Assembly (NCBI GenBank): GCA_945864305.1
Contig: CAMBAJ010000008.1
Coordinates: 1-46,998, forward strand
DNA from: an uncultured Clostridia bacterium
GTDB lineage: Bacteria > Bacillota > Clostridia > Oscillospirales > Oscillospiraceae
DNA length: 46,998 bases
Direction of reading: 5' to 3'
Position numbers and translations under genes: made by a program. Of the stretch, positions 17,596-25,074 are shown piece after piece; position 1 is the stretch's first letter; the number at the start of each line of letters is the position of its first letter. The notes below the pieces were generated by a model, which saw only the letters and a list, made by a program, of their open reading frames with translations, was not told the origin of the DNA and made no database searches.

Positions 17596-17741
17596 CGCTC
17601 CTCTTTTCCCATTCCCTCCAAATTTTTTCGCAATTCGCACAAGGTCAAAAAATTCCGTCTCCCGGCCATTTCCGGCCGTTTTTCCATCGTGTCTGTCTCT
17701 TACGCCGGAAAACGCCCCATTTATTTTGTATAAAATGACGA

Positions 17742-17770
17742 TTGACTTTATCTCTTTAAAGCTGTATGTT
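17742..17770 (+). promoter_or_regulatory. Promoter of the leader peptide and first ABC operon
   Basis: TTGACT (17742-17747), a 17-bp spacer and TATGTT (17765-17770). The predicted start near 17777 lies about 40 bases before the leader-peptide ATG. Confidence 0.75.
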
Positions 17771-17816
17771 GTAAAAGCAATCTAAGATTTGCCAGTGGGC
17801 GGAAAGGAGTTTCACG

Positions 17817-17933
17817 ATGCGTCGCGTGGTTATTCGTCCCCAGCGGTCCGCTCTGGACTCCTATTATTACTTTAGCAAGGTCCGCTACGCGGGCCGTTTT
17901 CCGCGCACCCTGTCACCGTCCGACTGTGCATGA
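17817..17933 (+). CDS. Leader peptide with Tyr-Tyr-Tyr-Phe control codons (attenuation peptide)
   Basis: A 38-codon reading frame starting ATG at 17817, with AAAGGAG 7 bases upstream (17803-17809), and ending TGA at 17931-17933. It begins MRRVVIRPQRSALDS, then codons 16-19 are TAT TAT TAC TTT (Tyr-Tyr-Tyr-Phe, 17862-17873), and codon 24 is another Tyr. It is basic, has no domain and is probably not functional as a protein. Its place before an intrinsic terminator and an amino-acid importer operon, together with mutually exclusive pairings around the Tyr codons, fits a ribosome-mediated attenuator in which scarce charged tRNA-Tyr or tRNA-Phe stalls the ribosome. Confidence 0.78.
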   Translation: MRRVVIRPQRSALDSYYYFSKVRYAGRFPRTLSPSDCA

Positions 17934-17980
17934 CCGCCGTATGAAGAGCGGCCCTGTCCAGACGGACAGGGCCGTTTTTT
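17844..17980 (+). promoter_or_regulatory. Transcription attenuator with competing hairpins
   Basis: Segment 1 CGGTCCGC (17844-17851, upstream of the Tyr codons) can pair with segment 2 GCGGGCCG (17889-17896). Segment 2 can alternatively pair with segment 3: GGGCCGTTTT (17891-17900) with AGAGCGGCCC (17945-17954), a 10-bp helix with two G-U pairs. Segment 3 also forms the left arm of the terminator (17949-17959 with 17964-17974). A ribosome stalled on Tyr codons 16-18 would cover part of segment 1, free segment 2, form 2:3 and prevent termination. Without a stall, 1:2 and 3:4 can form and transcription stops. The pairings are seen; the mechanism is inferred from classical attenuators. Confidence 0.7.
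17949..17980 (+). terminator. Intrinsic terminator of the attenuator
   Basis: An 11-bp perfect GC-rich stem (17949-17959 with 17964-17974), a loop of AGAC, then six T (17975-17980). It stands between the leader peptide and the lipoprotein gene with no other gene end nearby, so it must control read-through. Confidence 0.9.
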
Positions 17981-18031
17981 ATAGTGTCCCTTGCAATTCA
18001 TACCGAAATTTCAAGTAAGGAGAACAAAACG

Positions 18032-19045
18032 ATGAAAAAGAAGCTGCTTGCACTGACTCTGGCCGCTCTGATGGTCATGAGCCTCGCCGCCTGCGGCGGT
18101 TCCAAGGAAGAACCCGCCGCCGAGACCCCCGCCGAAACCGAACAGACCGAAACCCAGGAACCCGCCGCTGAGACCTACAAGGTCGGCATCTGCCAGCTGG
18201 TCCAGCACGAGGCGCTGGACGCCGCCACCCAGGGCTTCATCGACGCCCTGAATGAGAAGCTGCCCGGCCAGGTGGAGATCGACAACCAGAACGCCTCCAA
18301 CGACATCCCCATGTGCTCCACCATCGTCAACCAGTTCATCGCCGCTGACGTGGACCTGATCATGTGCAACGCCACCCCCGCCCTGCAGGCCGCCGCTGCC
18401 GCCACCACCACCATCCCCATCCTGGGCACCTCTGTCACCGAGTACGGCGTGGCCCTGGGCATCAGCAACTTTGACGGCACCGTGGGCGGCAACATCTCCG
18501 GCACCTCCGACCTGGCTCCTCTGGACCAGCAGGCCGCGATGATCCAGGAGCTGTTCCCCGACGCCAAGACCGTGGGTCTGATCTACTGCTCCGCCGAGGC
18601 CAACAGCCAGTATCAGGTGGACGTGGTCAAGGCCGAGCTGGAAAAGCTGGGCTACACCGCCACCCTGTACTCCTTCTCTGACTCCAACGATCTGGCCGCC
18701 GTCACCGAGAGCGCCGTGGCCGCCTCCGACGTGATCTACGTCCCCACCGACAACACCGTGGCCGCCAACACCGGCATCATCGACAACATCTGCCGTCCCG
18801 CCAAGGTCCCCGTCGTCGCCGGCGAGGAGGGCATCGTCAAGGGCTGCGGCGTGGCCACCCTGTCCATCAGCTACTATGACATCGGCTACAAGACCGGTGA
18901 GATGGCCGCCCAGGTCCTGACCGGCGAGGCCGACATCTCCACCATGCCCATCGAGTACGCGCCTCAGTTCACCAAGAAGTACAACGCTGAGATCTGCGCC
19001 GACCTGGGTCTGGAGATTCCCAGCGACTACGTCGCCGTCGAGTAA
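18032..19045 (+). CDS. ABC transporter substrate-binding lipoprotein (TrpX-like, ABC_sub_bind family), Tyr/Phe-attenuated operon
   Basis: A 337-residue lipoprotein with a signal peptide (MKKKLLALTLAALMVMSLAAC) whose lipobox LAAC places the lipidated cysteine at residue 21. A Glu/Thr/Pro linker and the ABC_sub_bind fold follow: YKVGICQLVQHEALDAA, DNQNASNDIPMCSTIV and GVALGISNFDGTVGGNISGTSD. The family includes the predicted tryptophan importer protein TrpX and is paralogous to the protein at 21413. The ATG at 18032 follows AAGGAG. It is the first gene after the Tyr-rich attenuator, so tyrosine and/or phenylalanine, or a derivative, is the likely ligand (inference). A strong hairpin separates it from the permease, as is usual where the binding protein is needed in excess. 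Confidence 0.9.
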   Translation: MKKKLLALTLAALMVMSLAACGGSKEEPAAETPAETEQTETQEPAAETYKVGICQLVQHEALDAATQGFIDALNEKLPGQVEIDNQNASNDIPMCSTIVNQFIAADVDLIMCNATPALQAAAAATTTIPILGTSVTEYGVALGISNFDGTVGGNISGTSDLAPLDQQAAMIQELFPDAKTVGLIYCSAEANSQYQVDVVKAELEKLGYTATLYSFSDSNDLAAVTESAVAASDVIYVPTDNTVAANTGIIDNICRPAKVPVVAGEEGIVKGCGVATLSISYYDIGYKTGEMAAQVLTGEADISTMPIEYAPQFTKKYNAEICADLGLEIPSDYVAVE

Positions 19046-19069
19046 TTTTTCGGCAGGTTTTTTGAAAAA

Positions 19070-19104
19070 GCAGCGGGAAAGGGCTTCCCTTTCCCGCTGC
19101 CTTT
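19070..19104 (+). terminator. Hairpin between binding protein and permease (partial terminator or mRNA stabiliser)
   Basis: A 14-bp perfect stem (19070-19083 with 19087-19100) with a 3-base loop, followed by CTTTTGC. The tail is short, so some read-through into the permease gene is expected; it would lower permease expression relative to the lipoprotein. Confidence 0.75.
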
Positions 19105-19149
19105 TGCTAATATGTTGATATCTATCAACACTTTTGGGGGAAGATACAT

Positions 19150-20073
19150 ATGAATCCAATCGCGCTTCTCAACTCGCTCCCCGGCGCGGTCTCACAGGGA
19201 CTGATCTGGGGCATCATGGCCATCGGCGTCTACCTCACCTATAAGATTCTGGATGTGGCGGACCTGACGGTGGACGGCACCATGTGCACGGGCGGTGCCG
19301 TGTTTATCATGCTGACCATGGCCGGCTGGTCCATTCCCGCCGCGCTGCTGGCCTCCTTCGCGGCCGGTATGCTGGCGGGTCTGGCCACGGGCCTTCTCCA
19401 CACCGCCTGCGGCATCCCCGCCATTCTCTCCGGCATCCTGACCCAGCTGGCTTTGTACTCCGTGAACCTGCGGATCATGGGCAAGGCCAACCAGCCCATC
19501 AACGCCAACAACTACAAGCTGCTGGTGTCCTCCCGGAACGTAAAGGTCCTGTCCGTGGAGAACCCCATCCTGGTGGTGGGCATCGTGTGTCTCGTGGTCA
19601 TCGCCCTGCTGTACTGGTTCTTCGGCACGGAGCTGGGCTGCGCCCTCCGCTCCACCGGCTCCAACCCCGCCATGAGCCGGGCCCAGGGCATCAACACCAA
19701 CTTCACCACCGTTCTGGGCCTGATGCTCTCCAACGGCCTGGTGGCCCTGTCCTCCGCTCTTTTGAGCCAGTATCAGGGCTTTGCCGACGTCAGCATGGGC
19801 CGCGGCGCCATCGTCATCGGCCTGGCCGCCGTCATCATCGGCGACGTGATCTTCGGCAAGGTCTTCACCAACTTCGCCCTGAAACTCCTCAGCGTGGTCA
19901 TCGGCTCCGTCATCTACTACACCGTGTACTCCCTGGTCATCTGGCTGGGCATGAGCGGCGACGACATGAAGCTCATCACCTCCCTGATTGTGGCCCTGTT
20001 CCTGTCCATTCCCTACTGGAAGGGCAAGTACTTCAGCAAGCCCGCCAAGAAAGGAGGCGCCGCAAATGCTTGA
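19150..20073 (+). CDS. ABC transporter permease (TrpY-like), first operon
   Basis: A 307-residue membrane protein of the branched-chain/ribose-type permease superfamily, with about eight or nine hydrophobic segments. It starts with VSQGLIWGIMAIGVYLTYKILDVADLTVDG, characteristic of TrpY-like permeases (the DVADLTVDGT motif), and has RSTGSNPAMSRAQGIN, matching the cytoplasmic coupling loop (RA.G.N) that contacts the ATPase. The ATG at 19150 has GGGGGAAG 7-12 bases upstream. The last 8 bases overlap the ATPase start. It forms the channel for the substrate delivered by the upstream lipoprotein. Confidence 0.92.
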   Translation: MNPIALLNSLPGAVSQGLIWGIMAIGVYLTYKILDVADLTVDGTMCTGGAVFIMLTMAGWSIPAALLASFAAGMLAGLATGLLHTACGIPAILSGILTQLALYSVNLRIMGKANQPINANNYKLLVSSRNVKVLSVENPILVVGIVCLVVIALLYWFFGTELGCALRSTGSNPAMSRAQGINTNFTTVLGLMLSNGLVALSSALLSQYQGFADVSMGRGAIVIGLAAVIIGDVIFGKVFTNFALKLLSVVIGSVIYYTVYSLVIWLGMSGDDMKLITSLIVALFLSIPYWKGKYFSKPAKKGGAANA

Positions 20074-20860
20074 GATCAAAGAAATCTGGAAGACCTTCAA
20101 CGCCGGCACCGTCAACGAAAAGCAGGCCCTCCGGGGCGTCAGCCTGACCCTGAACGACGGCGACTTCTGCACCGTCATCGGCGGCAACGGCGCCGGTAAG
20201 TCCACCATGCTCAACGCCGTGGCCGGCACCTGGACCGTGGATTCCGGCACCATCTCCATCGGCGGCACCGACGTCACCCGCCTGCCGGAGTACAAGCGGG
20301 CCAAGTTCATCGGCCGCGTGTTCCAGGACCCCATGCTGGGCACCGCCCCCACCATGCAGATCATCGAAAATCTGGCGCTGGCGGCCCGCCGGGGCCAGAC
20401 CCGCAGTCTGAAGTGGGGCATCACCAAGGCCGAGAAGGAGCGGTATCAGGAGCTGCTCCGGGGCCTGGACCTGGGTCTGGAGGACCGGCTCACCAGCAAG
20501 GTGGGCCTCCTGTCCGGCGGCCAGCGCCAGGCGCTGACGCTGCTGATGGCCTCTTTGCAGAAGCCCAAGCTGCTGCTTCTGGACGAGCACACCGCCGCCC
20601 TGGACCCCAAGACCGCCGCCAAGGTGCTGGAGCTCTCCGACCGCATCGTGGAGGAGAACCACCTGACCACCATGATGGTCACCCACAACATGAAGGACGC
20701 CATCGTCCACGGCAACCGGCTGATCATGATGTATGACGGCCGCATCGTCATCGACGTCTCCGGCGAGGAGAAGAAGAAGCTGACGGTCCCCCAGCTGCTG
20801 GACCTGTTCAGCAAGGTCAGCGGCAGCGACGAGGCCGACGACAAGCTGCTGCTGTCCTGA
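20066..20860 (+). CDS. ABC transporter ATP-binding protein (TrpZ-like), first operon
   Basis: A 264-residue importer ATPase. Walker A is GGNGAGKST (about 40-48), the Q-loop RVFQDPMLGTAPTM, the signature LLSGGQRQALTLL, Walker B LLLLDEHTAALDP, and the switch histidine VTHNMKDAI. AAAGGAGG precedes the ATG at 20066. The start lies within the permease 3' end: the shared bases ATGCTTGA hold the ATPase start and the permease stop, giving tight translational coupling. The same 8-base overlap occurs in the second operon. It ends the operon; a GC hairpin follows. Confidence 0.95.
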   Translation: MLEIKEIWKTFNAGTVNEKQALRGVSLTLNDGDFCTVIGGNGAGKSTMLNAVAGTWTVDSGTISIGGTDVTRLPEYKRAKFIGRVFQDPMLGTAPTMQIIENLALAARRGQTRSLKWGITKAEKERYQELLRGLDLGLEDRLTSKVGLLSGGQRQALTLLMASLQKPKLLLLDEHTAALDPKTAAKVLELSDRIVEENHLTTMMVTHNMKDAIVHGNRLIMMYDGRIVIDVSGEEKKKLTVPQLLDLFSKVSGSDEADDKLLLS

Positions 20861-21002: not shown

Positions 21003-21283
21003 AATCAAACAAACCAAACCGATGAGCAAGAGGAGTACCTGGTCAGGTCACCTTTCAGAGAGCCGTGGATGGTGGGATCACGGCAGAGAACTTTCCAGCG
21101 AATGGACTTGCGAGGGCAGAGCGAACGGGCGGACGCCTCAGTAGCGGCTGACGGGGACCGCACCCGTTACCAGCGCGGCACGGATGGATGTCCGTGAGAC
21201 GAGCGGGCGCTATGCGCCAACTTGGGTGGTACCGCAGGATTCAGAGTCTTGTCCCAATGATGGGATGAGGCTTTTATTTTTTT
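21003..21283 (+). promoter_or_regulatory. T-box riboswitch, tryptophan specifier (UGG)
   Basis: Senses uncharged tRNA and lets transcription continue when the amino acid is scarce. Stem I base GCAAG (21026-21030) pairs with CTTGC (21107-21111), and CTGG (21039-21042) with CCAG (21095-21098). The internal loop has AGTA on the left and CGAATGGA on the right, so the specifier after GAA is TGG (21103-21105), Trp. The T-box itself, TTGGGTGGTACCGCAG, lies at 21222-21237. The terminator is a 12-bp stem with G-U pairs (21245-21256 with 21261-21272) followed by TTTATTTTTTT. One caveat: the T-box variable base is U, which pairs best with an A discriminator, whereas many bacterial tRNA-Trp have G. Confidence 0.92.
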
Positions 21284-21412: not shown

Positions 21413-22444
21413 ATGAAAAACTTCAAGAGATTTGCTTCCGCCATTCTGGCTCTGACCCTGGCCCTGTCCCTCACCGCCTGCGGCGGCTCCAAGGAGACCG
21501 CCTCCGACGCCCCCGCTGATTCCGGCGATTCCGCCCCCGCCGAGGAGACCGCCAAGGTCTACAAGATCGGCATCTCCCAGTACGGCGAGCACGCCTCCCT
21601 GGACAACTGCCGGGAGGGCTTCCTCCAGGGTCTGGCCGAGGCCGGTCTGGTGGAGGGCACCGACTTTGAGGTGGACTACCAGAACGCCGGATTCGACGAC
21701 TCCATCGCCACCCAGATCGGCCAGAGCTTCTCCGCCGAGGATGTGGACCTGATGGTCGCCATCGCCACCCCCTCCGCCACGGCCTGCTACGCCGCCGCCG
21801 AGGACAAGGACATCCCCGTCATCTTCACCGCCATTACCGACCCCGTCCAGGCCAAGCTGGACTCCGGCAACGTCACCGGCACCTCCGACAAGCTGCCCGT
21901 GGAGGCCCAGCTGGACCTGATCCGTCAGATGCAGCCCAACGCCAAGACCATCGGCATCATCTACACCACCAGCGAGCCCAACTCCGTCTCCGCCATCGCC
22001 GAGTACCAGGAGAAGGCCCCCGACTTCGGCTTTGAGATCGACGCCATCGGCGTCACCGCCCAGTCCGAGGTCACCCAGGCCGCCGACACCCTGATCTCCC
22101 ACAAGGTGGACTGCATCTCCAACCTGACCGACAACAACGTGGTGGGCGTCCTGGCCGCCATCCTGGAAAAGACCAACGAGGCCGGTATCCCCATCTACGG
22201 CTCCGAGGTGGAGCAGGTGAAGCTGGGCTGCGTGGCCTCCGCCGGTATCGACTACGTCCAGCTGGGCATCCAGACCGGCAAGATGGCCGCCAAGGTCCTG
22301 ACCGGCGAGGCCACCTGCCAGGACCTGCCCTATGAGACCATCGAGGAGTACGGCATCTACATCAACTCCGACATGCTGGACGCCATGGGCATCACCCTCC
22401 CCGACGAGATCGCCGCCAAGGCCGTGGAGGCCAGCGAGGCCTGA
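21413..22444 (+). CDS. ABC transporter substrate-binding lipoprotein (TrpX-like), Trp T-box operon
   Basis: A 343-residue lipoprotein. The signal peptide ends in the lipobox LTAC with cysteine at residue 20, followed by a Ser/Asp/Ala linker. The ABC_sub_bind domain shows YKIGISQYGEHASLDNCREGF, DYQNAGFDDSIATQIGQSF, FTAITDPVQAKL and NVTGTSDKLPVEAQLDLI, close to described TrpX proteins. TAGGAGA precedes the ATG at 21413. The Trp T-box immediately upstream makes tryptophan the most likely ligand, in line with the TrpXYZ importers predicted in other Firmicutes. It is clearly paralogous to the protein at 18032 but not a recent copy: identity is confined to motif blocks. Confidence 0.93.
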   Translation: MKNFKRFASAILALTLALSLTACGGSKETASDAPADSGDSAPAEETAKVYKIGISQYGEHASLDNCREGFLQGLAEAGLVEGTDFEVDYQNAGFDDSIATQIGQSFSAEDVDLMVAIATPSATACYAAAEDKDIPVIFTAITDPVQAKLDSGNVTGTSDKLPVEAQLDLIRQMQPNAKTIGIIYTTSEPNSVSAIAEYQEKAPDFGFEIDAIGVTAQSEVTQAADTLISHKVDCISNLTDNNVVGVLAAILEKTNEAGIPIYGSEVEQVKLGCVASAGIDYVQLGIQTGKMAAKVLTGEATCQDLPYETIEEYGIYINSDMLDAMGITLPDEIAAKAVEASEA

Positions 22445-22476
22445 TTTTCACACCAACATCATAAGGAGCTGTTTTC

Positions 22477-23340
22477 ATGAAACTTGTCACGTATCAGTAT
22501 GACGGCATCGAGCGCGTGGGCGCCCTGACAGCGGACGGCGCCGCCATCCTCCCCCTGCCCTATCCCGACATGAATACCCTCATCGAATCGGCTTCCTTCG
22601 CCGACCTGCTCTCTGCCGCCAGCGCGGCAGAGAGCTCTGGCGCTTCTGTGCCGGCGGCGGAGGCGGTCCTGTGCGCTCCCATCCCCCGGCCCCGGCAGGA
22701 CATCATCTGCCTGGGCATGAACTACCGGGACCACCTGACCGAGGCCGCCAACTACGACAGCGCCTTCGCCAAGGAGCGGCCCGTCACCGTGTACTTCTCC
22801 AAGCGGGTCAGCCAGGCCGTGGCGCCGGAGGGCTTCATTGAGCGCCACGCAGGTCTGACAGAGCGGCTGGACTATGAGAACGAGCTGGCCGTCATCCTCG
22901 GCAAGACCGCCCGGGACGTGAAGGCCGCCGACGCGGCGGACTACATCTTCGGCTACACCATCGTCAACGACGTGTCCGCCCGGGAGGTCCAGACCGCCCA
23001 CAAGCAGTTCTACTTCGGCAAGAGCCTGGACGGCTTCACCCCCATGGGCCCCTGCATCACCACGGCGGACGAGATCGCCTTCCCCCCGGCGCTGACGCTG
23101 ACCACCCTGGTCAACGGCGAGCTCCGGCAGAACTCCAACACCAGCCTGCTCCTCAACAGCATCGCCGAGATCATCGAGGAGCTGTCCTCCGGCATGACCC
23201 TGCTACCCGGCACCATCATCGCCACCGGCACCCCCGCCGGCGTGGGCATGGGCTTTGATCCCCCGAAATTCCTGGCCTCCGGCGACGTGGTGGCGTGCAC
23301 CATCGAGGGCATCGGCACCCTGCGGAACACCGTCCGCTGA
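22477..23340 (+). CDS. Fumarylacetoacetate hydrolase (FAH) family protein inside the Trp importer operon
   Basis: A 287-residue cytoplasmic enzyme of the FAH superfamily, whose members hydrolyse or decarboxylate 2,4-dioxo acids and related compounds with a divalent metal. The fold core is visible: DIICLGMNYRDHL, ERLDYENELAVILG (two metal-binding glutamates, around residues 134-136), IFGYTIVNDVSAREVQ (the metal aspartate), and IATGTPAGVGMGFDPPKFLASGD near the end. AAGGAG precedes the ATG at 22477. It lies 32 bases after the lipoprotein and 29 before the permease, so it is part of the T-box transcript. No FAH gene occurs in the sister operon. The substrate is unknown; an aromatic or indole-derived oxo acid is only a guess. 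Confidence 0.92.
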   Translation: MKLVTYQYDGIERVGALTADGAAILPLPYPDMNTLIESASFADLLSAASAAESSGASVPAAEAVLCAPIPRPRQDIICLGMNYRDHLTEAANYDSAFAKERPVTVYFSKRVSQAVAPEGFIERHAGLTERLDYENELAVILGKTARDVKAADAADYIFGYTIVNDVSAREVQTAHKQFYFGKSLDGFTPMGPCITTADEIAFPPALTLTTLVNGELRQNSNTSLLLNSIAEIIEELSSGMTLLPGTIIATGTPAGVGMGFDPPKFLASGDVVACTIEGIGTLRNTVR

Positions 23341-23369
23341 TCTCAAACCCAAACAAGGAGGGTCTCGCC

Positions 23370-24308
23370 ATGCAGGACCTCATCATCAGCACCCTGACCC
23401 AGGGTCTGATTTACGCGCTGATCTCCTTCGGCGTCTACATCACCTATTCCATTCTGGACTTCCCGGACCTGGGCGTGGACGGCACCTTTCCCCTGGGCGC
23501 CGCCGTCACGGCGGTTCTTCTGATCAGGGGCGTCAACGCCTGGCTGACCCTGCCCCTGGCCATGCTGGCGGGAGCTCTGGCGGGCCTGTTCACCGGCTTC
23601 ATCCATGTGAAGTTCCGCATCCGGAACCTGCTGGCGGGCATCATCACCCAGACGGCCCTGTTCTCCATCAACCTCCAGATCGCCGGCTCCAACCTGACGG
23701 TGGACCGGGGGACGGACACCATTTTCACCTCCGCCCCGGTGATGGCCCTGATGGGAAACAGCAATAACATGACCCGCAAGCTGGTGGTGTCTCTGCTGCT
23801 GATCCTGGTGGTGAAGCTGCTGCTGGATCTGTATCTGCGGACCAAGTCCGGCCTGCTGCTGCGGGCCGTGGGTGATAATGGCGGCCTGGTCACCTCCCTG
23901 GCCAAAGACAAGGGCCGGGTGAAGATTCTGGGCCTGGTGATCGCCAACGCTCTGGTGGCCCTGGGCGGCTGCGTGGTCTGTCATGAGCAGCGGAGCTTCT
24001 CCGCCACCATGGGAACCGGCCAGCTGGTCTATGGTCTGGCGGCAGTCATTATCGGCATTTCCCTCATGAACTATTACAGTGCCTCCCCCCTTGCCCGGAG
24101 ACTGCGGAAGCACAAGGGTCTGGGCTGGCTGGCCTCTCCCGCCGGCACCACCGCTGTGATCCTGGGCAGCATTCTCTACAAGCTGTGCATCCAGCTGGCC
24201 CTGAGCATGGGTCTGCCGGCCAATATGATGAAGCTGATCACCGCCCTGCTGTTTTTGCTGGTGCTGGTGCTGTCCGGACGGAAAGGGGAGGAGATTATCC
24301 ATGCTTGA
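23370..24308 (+). CDS. ABC transporter permease (TrpY-like), Trp T-box operon
   Basis: A 312-residue membrane protein with about eight hydrophobic segments. The start is like that of its paralogue: LTQGLIYALISFGVYITYSILDFPDLGVDGTF. The ATPase-coupling loop is LLRAVGDNGGLVTSLAKDKGR. AAGGAGG lies before the ATG at 23370. The 3' end overlaps the ATPase start by 8 bases. It should form the membrane channel for the Trp importer. Compared with the first operon's permease it has extra polar residues between the last two segments (ASPLARRLRKHKGLGWL). Confidence 0.92.
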   Translation: MQDLIISTLTQGLIYALISFGVYITYSILDFPDLGVDGTFPLGAAVTAVLLIRGVNAWLTLPLAMLAGALAGLFTGFIHVKFRIRNLLAGIITQTALFSINLQIAGSNLTVDRGTDTIFTSAPVMALMGNSNNMTRKLVVSLLLILVVKLLLDLYLRTKSGLLLRAVGDNGGLVTSLAKDKGRVKILGLVIANALVALGGCVVCHEQRSFSATMGTGQLVYGLAAVIIGISLMNYYSASPLARRLRKHKGLGWLASPAGTTAVILGSILYKLCIQLALSMGLPANMMKLITALLFLLVLVLSGRKGEEIIHA

Positions 24309-25074
24309 GCTGCGCAACATCACCAAGGTCTATAACCCCGGCACCGTCACCGAGCAGACCCTGTTCCGTGACTTTTCCCTCACCGTGGAGGAGGGGCAGT
24401 TCGTGTCCATCGTGGGCAGCAACGGCAGCGGCAAGACCTCCCTGCTGAACATCATCTGCGGCTCCATCCCCATCGAGGGCGGCGACGTGCTGGTGGGCGG
24501 TCAGAGCATCTCCAGGCTGAAAGACTACCAGCGCTACGCCACCATGGGCCGGGTCTACCAGAACCCGGCGGCGGGCACCTGCCCCAACCTGACCATGCTG
24601 GAGAACCTGTCCCTGGCGGACAACAAGGGCAAGTCCTTCGGCCTTGGGCGGGGCGTGAACCGCAAGCGCGTGGACTTCTATCGGGCGCAGCTCCAGTCCC
24701 TGGGGCTGGGGCTGGAGGATAAGCTGGACGTGAAGATGGGCGCCCTGTCCGGCGGCCAGCGGCAGGCCGTGTCCCTGCTGATGGCCACCATGACGCCCCT
24801 GCACTTCCTGATCCTGGACGAACACACCGCCGCCCTGGACCCCAAGACGGCGGAGATCATCATGGAGCTGACGGACAAGGTGGTCCGGGAGAAGAAGCTC
24901 ACCGCCATGATGGTGACCCACAACCTGCGCTACGCCGTGGAGTACGGCGACCGGATTTTGATGATGGACCGGGGCCACGTGGTCCTGGACCGGGCCGGGG
25001 CGGAGAAGCAGGCCACCTCCATCGACGACATTCTGGGGATGTTCAACCAGATTTCTCTGGAGTGCGGGAACTGA
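24301..25074 (+). CDS. ABC transporter ATP-binding protein (TrpZ-like), Trp T-box operon
   Basis: A 257-residue importer ATPase: Walker A GSNGSGKTS (about 40-48), Q-loop RVYQNPAAGTCPNLTM, signature ALSGGQRQAVSLL, Walker B FLILDEHTAALDP and switch histidine VTHNLRYAV. GGGGAGGAG precedes the ATG at 24301, inside the permease 3' end (shared ATGCTTGA). It parallels the ATPase at 20066 in length, motifs and overlap, so the two operons arose by duplication of a whole transporter set. A strong terminator follows 7 bases after the stop. Confidence 0.95.
   Translation: MLELRNITKVYNPGTVTEQTLFRDFSLTVEEGQFVSIVGSNGSGKTSLLNIICGSIPIEGGDVLVGGQSISRLKDYQRYATMGRVYQNPAAGTCPNLTMLENLSLADNKGKSFGLGRGVNRKRVDFYRAQLQSLGLGLEDKLDVKMGALSGGQRQAVSLLMATMTPLHFLILDEHTAALDPKTAEIIMELTDKVVREKKLTAMMVTHNLRYAVEYGDRILMMDRGHVVLDRAGAEKQATSIDDILGMFNQISLECGN

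Follow-up and report, generated by a model that had tools for sequence, protein, structure and literature searches.

A putative tyrosine/phenylalanine leader-peptide attenuator upstream of a CD0873-like ABC importer and its relatives in Oscillospirales

An ABC importer of an uncultured Clostridia bacterium of the Oscillospiraceae (contig CAMBAJ010000008.1; the whole stretch of 46,998 nucleotides analyzed here is referred to as the window) is preceded by a promoter, a short open reading frame (ORF) and a terminator-like hairpin, which raises the question of how, and in response to which signal, the importer genes are controlled. A preliminary description of this DNA proposed attenuation by a Tyr/Phe leader peptide. 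Our comparative tests mostly speak for this sequence-based prediction, with corrections to segment 1 of the attenuator and to the substrate of the importer. Very probably, the element acts by ribosome-mediated transcription attenuation: the charging of tRNA-Tyr and tRNA-Phe would be sensed through translation of the leader, and the genes under control would be those of a tyrosine-type ABC importer. The observations behind this reading are the leader ORF, its codons, the hairpins, the conservation of these features, the covariation of the 1:2 and 3:4 pairings, and a computed switch between alternative structures.

The features of the locus are collected in Table 1. The promoter, the Shine-Dalgarno sequence, the 38-codon frame and the run of four aromatic codons were all found by direct reading as previously claimed, and segments 2, 3 and 4 had been placed correctly, with ten pairs between segments 2 and 3. 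The arrangement of promoter, ORF, hairpin and terminator in front of an ABC importer is confirmed as real and beyond chance. Folding of the leader RNA (17780-17980) yields -83.7 kcal/mol, a z-score of -3.83 against dinucleotide shuffles, none of 200 of which was as stable. Two details had to be revised. The terminator is indeed strong, but its stem comprises 16 pairs and not 11. The upstream copy that had been taken for segment 1 can pair with segment 2, but the conserved segment 1 is a local arm downstream of the control codons. A stretch upstream that matches segment 2 over 7 bp or more occurs in 14 of the 80 family members, eight of which, the window and seven close relatives, share a motif of the same kind; pairing of the local 5' arm reaches at least 7 bp in 63 members and at least 5 bp in 75. 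The resulting 1:2 hairpin has a 3-nt loop and lies wholly inside the leader ORF.

Table 1. Features of the leader region and of the importer genes in the window
Feature	Positions	Strand	Basis
Sigma-70-like promoter: -35 TTGACT 17742-17747, 17-nt spacer, -10 TATGTT 17765-17770	17742-17770	+	
TTTAAAG in the promoter spacer	17755-17761	+	direct reading
Shine-Dalgarno sequence AAAGGAG of the leader ORF	17803-17809	+	direct reading
Leader peptide ORF, 38 codons, MRRVVIRPQRSALDSYYYFSKVRYAGRFPRTLSPSDCA	17817-17933	+	ATG 17817, stop 17931-17933; related leaders in orthologs
Upstream copy CGGTCCGC, segment 1 of the preliminary description	17844-17851	+	can pair with 17889-17896
Control codons TAT TAT TAC TTT (Tyr-Tyr-Tyr-Phe), in frame	17862-17873	+	direct reading; Tyr/Phe enrichment across 79 leaders
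Segment 1, GGTCCGC, 5' arm of the conserved 1:2 hairpin, within the ORF	17879-17885	+	alignments, covariation
GCGGGCC, 3' arm of the 1:2 hairpin, start of segment 2 (which runs on to 17900)	17889-17895	+	alignments, covariation
Segment 2, GGGCCGTTTT, antiterminator strand, partner of 17945-17954	17891-17900	+	pairing scan, computed switch
Segment 3, AGAGCGGCCC, partner of segment 2 in the antiterminator and base of the 5' arm of the terminator	17945-17954	+	pairing scan, computed switch
Intrinsic terminator 3:4	17944-17980	+	17944-17959 with 17964-17979, loop 17960-17963, T run to 17980
ABC substrate-binding protein, PF04392, CD0873-like, predicted Tyr ligand	18032-19045	+	Pfam, structure matches, pocket residues
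Permease, PF02653, same importer	19150-20073	+	Pfam
ATPase, PF00005, same importer	20063-20860	+	Pfam

For the attenuator reading we infer ribosome stalling, the tRNA signal, read-through and the substrate. With ample Tyr and Phe, the ribosome would pass the control codons and the 1:2 hairpin would form or re-form; segment 3 would then be free, and the 3:4 terminator would halt RNA polymerase near 17980. With Tyr or Phe in short supply, the ribosome would stall on TAT TAT TAC TTT and cover the 5' arm of the hairpin; segments 2 and 3 could then pair while segment 4 is still to be transcribed, and polymerase would go on into the importer genes. The 5' arm starts 8 nt past the first base of the TTT codon, and the leading edge of a ribosome lies about 12 nt beyond the A-site base; a ribosome with TTT in its A site would thus cover most of the arm.

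The control codons were analyzed in 80 family members and 79 leaders, with codon positions counted in the frame set by the hairpin. An in-frame start with a Shine-Dalgarno match of at least 4 nt was found in 79 of the 80 members (L228, missed in that count, has one in the locus reading), and Tyr or Phe codons occupy 214 of the 316 positions -6 to -3 before the hairpin, whereas the two alternative frames give 25 and 75. These counts are partly selected for because the set was chosen partly for possession of an aromatic leader and because the covariance models contain the 20 bases ahead of the hairpin, positions -6 to -3 included; many of the members are also closely related. At positions -9 to -7 of the 79 leaders the frequency of Tyr/Phe is 6-8% per position, and no Trp codon occurs at positions -6 to -3. 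The codons used at the latter positions are TTT (79), TAT (65), TTC (38) and TAC (32); since both synonymous codons are used for each amino acid, a U-rich tract alone does not account for the run. Wherever the leader is present, both in the ortholog loci and among the 79 leaders, the Tyr/Phe run has been retained, which was the first check proposed in the preliminary description; L029 is a weak case, with one Tyr and no Phe directly before the hairpin. The window itself combines a Shine-Dalgarno-led leader ORF with clustered Tyr/Phe codons in front of a predicted tyrosine importer.

Conservation of the pairings was assessed in an alignment of 18 sequences (A1) and in a larger one of 87 rows (A4), seven of which are antisense or bare terminators with gaps in most hairpin pairs; the cells counted are sequences of related rows and not independent events. 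The 1:2 hairpin is 100% paired and nearly invariant in A1. In A4, 97.1% of cells are paired and both sides change in five of the seven pairs (e.g. GC to CG, GC to AU, CG to UA), counts that lean towards the model because A4 was fitted to its structure; the variants GGTCTGC/GCAGGCC, GACCCG/CGGGTC and GGGTCGC/GCGGCCC are plain in the sequences themselves. The 3:4 terminator is 99.0% paired in A1, with both-side changes in 5 of 16 pairs. The 2:3 pairing is 91.7% paired in the same alignment, compared with 46-66% at slid positions, and no both-side change was found for it in these 18 sequences. Of the three pairings for which covariation had been anticipated, 1:2 and 3:4 show it; 2:3 is strong in the window but shows none in A1. 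Both an anti-antiterminator hairpin and an intrinsic terminator are thus found ahead of the first structural gene.

The hairpin-coding part of the peptide, a VR-aromatic-AG stretch, is well conserved, and in many leaders aromatic residues also follow the hairpin, as could be expected if VR[YF]AG stalled the ribosome by nascent-peptide arrest on free Tyr/Phe or another small molecule, without codon-specific tRNA starvation. TnaC is an example of such an arrest in response to a small molecule. However, the conserved stretch coincides with the RNA hairpin, and the pairing is kept where the peptide has changed to VCYAG (L138), GRFAA (L133), TRLYAG (L135), ARKYLAG (L137) or AREMFAG (L134); moreover, the aromatic run precedes the hairpin at a near-fixed distance, a position in which stalling at its codons would be of use. 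Since the pairing is kept while the peptide changes, we do not adopt nascent-peptide arrest as the first choice and regard it as quite unlikely, and we retain stalling on the Tyr/Phe codons as the preferred explanation.

To compute the switch between the 1:2 and 2:3 structures, transcripts were truncated ahead of segment 4, and the five initial bases of the 5' arm were masked so as to mimic a stalled ribosome. In the window, 6.9 pairs are expected for 1:2 when the arm is free, and masking raises the expected number of 2:3 pairs from 0.1 to 11.1, compared with at most 7.95 in 20 shuffles of the downstream stretch. For the 80 members, the mean expected number of 2:3 pairs rises from 0.33 to 3.98 upon masking, and the summed value of 318 exceeds all 20 shuffle replicates (116-216); at least three expected 2:3 pairs are reached by 34 of the 80 masked members versus 28.3% of the downstream shuffles. 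The 2:3 pairing is therefore convincing for the window itself and exceeds chance over the whole set, but in many of the distant members a different partner or a different layout must be in use.

The nature of the importer was examined through its binding protein, whose best structural match is CD0873 (6hni, E 4.9e-56), ahead of 3lft and 3lkv. As given in the available part of PMC6816091, the ligands of these three proteins are Tyr, Trp and Phe, respectively, and in CD0873 the preference is set by Glu-263 and Tyr-279; the protein of the window carries Glu 265 and Tyr 281 at the equivalents of these published positions. Among the 62 leader-controlled binding proteins passing the motif filter, the first of these positions holds Glu in 59 and the second holds Tyr in all 62. 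The score of the window protein with the TrpX equivalog NF041285 is 236.6 bits, under the cut-off of 390. Given this sub-cut-off score and the Glu/Tyr pocket pair, the importer is better named CD0873-like, with tyrosine as the predicted substrate, than TrpXYZ-type as originally proposed. Between the binding-protein and permease genes there is a further terminator-like hairpin (about 19066-19105, GCAGCGGGAAAGGG...CCCTTTCCCGCTGC followed by a T-rich stretch), with similar ones in some relatives, which may set the ratio of the subunits.

The distribution of the element was studied with two covariance models, R1, run on the own genome and 400 family genomes, and R2, built from 34 members and run on 400 family, 86 genus, 394 order and 391 class genomes. 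In the own genome, a search with R1 for further copies found only the window as a high-scoring match; the next one scored 34.3 bits, and the lower matches L119 and L124 had no such leader on reading. In the genus, 45 of the 86 genomes matched R2 at 1e-7. Four of these are not members (G465, G468, G476 and G486, three without a leader frame and one with only an unrelated long frame), and with these and the degenerate locus L021 removed, model and inspection together place the element in 40 of the 86 genomes. In the family run, 32 hits scored 45 bits or more, and the leader ORF, which starts outside the model, is present in every one of them; 18 belonged to the R2 training set and 14 did not. 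Hits below about 40 bits are mostly plain terminators among those read, with true members in L153 and L154 (R1) and in L197 and L231-L233 (R2). Other weak hits were dropped as non-members by eye (L144-L146, L148-L152, L196, L198-L207, L209-L213, L219-L224, L230), the short frames printed by an automatic scan in L198, L204, L209, L223 and L230 being judged unrelated. By hand count, members occur in the own genus and in 20 further ones, 21 genera altogether, which belong to four families of the order.

In the class, R2 matched five of 391 genomes at 1e-7, the own genome included. The match in G1064 (L236) has the Tyr/Phe leader TYFYFTYF before a binding-protein gene, and that in G867 (L235, 1501-1886), from another family of the class, consists of two tandem Phe-rich attenuators; L237 and L238 proved not to be members when the loci were read. 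Applied to 80 loci from named contigs, R2 gave strong matches in L038 and L039, and among the weaker matches L111, L102, L103, L056 and L100 have an aromatic leader. A loose scan of the named orthologs found at least three aromatic residues in six codons in 34 of 80, mostly by chance; with a reverse-strand control, the same scan yielded at least four aromatics in 11 of 76 forward versus 3 of 76 reverse, and six aromatics in four versus none.

Ten of the 80 leaders precede genes other than those for a binding protein. These encode a chorismate mutase/prephenate dehydratase, as identified by Pfam (L153, L191, L226), a phenylacetate-CoA ligase-like protein behind Phe-rich leaders (L185, with the best NCBIfam match TIGR02155 at 511 bits, under the cut-off of 646, and L227, with AMP-binding domains by Pfam), a GNAT protein (L154, L182, L228), a TrpB-like enzyme (L197) and a DUF554 protein (L141). 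The protein downstream of the tandem attenuators in L235 resembles at its N-terminus the phenylacetate-CoA ligase-like proteins of L185 and L227. Behind the remaining leaders the first ORF looks like a lipoprotein of the binding-protein kind, as it also does behind the second leader of L231, where two successive binding-protein genes each have their own attenuator of the Tyr/Phe leader family. The genes behind the leaders are thus an independent pointer to aromatic amino acids, with the exception of the GNAT and DUF554 genes, for which the leader suggests roles in aromatic amino acid metabolism.

Orthologs of the importer itself are less uniformly regulated. Of 60 relatives searched with the binding protein, 33 have a match at 1e-60, and the upstream regions of a subset of these matches, 25 loci of the own genus and five of other families, were read. 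In 16 of the 25 own-genus loci the leader is present, its core reading S-Y-Y-F-x-K-VRYAG or some variant of that; it also occurs in the named contigs L038, from an uncultured Dysosmobacter with a 90% identical binding protein, and L039. No intact leader was found in 9 of the 25 own-genus loci read, so leader control is not universal. The leader was not seen upstream in L010, L014, L015, L019 and L028, looks degenerate in L021, and in L017, L025 and L030 the terminator directly follows the promoter with no leader ORF, perhaps as a relic of leader loss. The five loci of other families that were read are without the leader; that of L031 has a T-box.

Of 32 ortholog loci, 28 retain the promoter pattern TTGACTT...TTTAAAG, loci without a leader and with a T-box among them, and a longer version of the pattern has one match in the own genome; the TTTAAAG in the spacer is likely an operator. 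The conserved spacer, together with the terminator retained in the three leaderless orthologs, might indicate that control is exerted at the promoter through this operator, the leader terminator being constitutive and the small ORF being unrelated or encoding a microprotein. This explanation is very unlikely in our view: beyond the aromatic run and the hairpin, the leader peptides differ from one another in both sequence and length, the hairpin within the ORF covaries, and the element is also found before unrelated genes, several of which are tied to aromatic metabolism. Attenuation through the leader peptide accordingly remains the reading that we follow.

The usual device for such control in Firmicutes is the T-box, and T-boxes occur both 3 kb downstream of the leader in the window and before the ortholog in L031. 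A T-box or another ligand-binding RNA that acts independently of translation is, however, hardly credible for the leader itself. No Rfam family, T-box RF00230 included, reaches its gathering score at 17600-18100, the best sub-threshold match being ncS011 over the terminator (21.7 versus 48 bits), and the conserved core is a Shine-Dalgarno-led ORF with frame-specific aromatic codons. In the ortholog of L031 (71% identity, another family), the T-box reads UAC (Tyr) at what we take to be the specifier site. Other Tyr/Phe leaders were found before further orthologs, with the runs YYYYYY (L056), YFYYYF (L081) and YYFGFTAYYYV (L090), and the TYFYFTYF leader of L236 belongs with these. The downstream T-box of the window (RF00230, 98.6 bits, 21013-21259, forward strand) reads UGG (Trp) at the specifier and lies ahead of 21413-25074; the second, paralogous importer that follows it nevertheless has a binding protein with the CD0873-like Glu/Tyr pair. 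One locus therefore carries two tRNA-charging sensors of different kind, a leader attenuator and a T-box. Within the second importer cluster there is also a gene of the fumarylacetoacetate hydrolase family (22477-23340).

Beyond the single locus, we lean towards the view that many Oscillospirales possess a distinct family of Tyr/Phe attenuators, characterized by an in-ORF hairpin that encodes VR-[YF]-AG right after the aromatic run, and that this family could serve as a regulon-wide aromatic sensor for the importer, prephenate dehydratase, phenylacetate-CoA ligase-like and other genes, replacing T-boxes and sometimes acting in tandem. At the importer, the sensor would be exchanged (T-box, this attenuator family, other Tyr/Phe leaders or none) behind the same promoter. 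If this holds, peptide attenuation would be a recurrent aromatic sensor in gut bacteria, no rarity in Clostridia and a stand-in for the T-box at the same gene, and the importer would offer a natural case of two unrelated tRNA-charging sensors swapped behind a conserved promoter. It would also provide a searchable covariance model, substrate predictions for uncharacterized importers and roles for genes such as DUF554 and GNAT, and it would bear on how gut bacteria control the uptake of tyrosine and phenylalanine.

In agreement with the preliminary description, no earlier account of a Tyr/Phe leader for the CD0873-like importer family or for Oscillospiraceae was found among the literature matches listed, a scope that mostly leaves out subscription journals, or in Rfam. 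The mechanism is known, whereas the family, the amino acids, the gene and the lineage appear new. The leader-peptide attenuators of Escherichia coli pheA and trp share with the present element a short ORF with the sensed codons, the alternative 1:2, 2:3 and 3:4 pairings and an intrinsic terminator. In contrast to them, segment 1 here directly follows the control codons, segments 1 and 2 lie inside the ORF, Tyr and Phe codons are mixed, and an importer is controlled, in Clostridia.

That peptide attenuators are best known outside Firmicutes, as the preliminary description also stated, holds with the qualification that a few Firmicutes cases (hisZ/hisS, ilv and a candidate at aroF) have already been reported in the parts of the sources available. 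Leader peptides of hisZ/hisS in Bacillus are reported in the available text of PMC2965389, which notes no similarity between Firmicutes and Proteobacteria leaders; they resemble our element as Firmicutes leader peptides standing where T-boxes stand elsewhere, and differ in their His codons and in the genes controlled. In the accessible portion of PMC5794164, the leucine attenuator of Staphylococcus aureus ilv-leu likewise combines a leader peptide with a terminator, supported by reporter and mutant data, and acts through Leu on a biosynthetic operon. The uORFC-13-1 motif of Acholeplasma aroF (24 representatives, at least one Phe codon, according to the excerpted text of PMC8632094) is similarly a candidate, a Phe-coding uORF followed by a terminator at a gene of the aromatic pathway, in another lineage, a likeness that is drawn from its description only. 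The hisZ leader and Lactococcus lactis lysQ are also mentioned in the available part of PMC4833913. The Trp T-box at Streptococcus suis trpXYZ, as described in the available text of PMC9382623, and the T-box of L031 likewise serve a related importer, respond to tRNA charging and choose between terminator and antiterminator, but they bind the tRNA directly and use no leader peptide.
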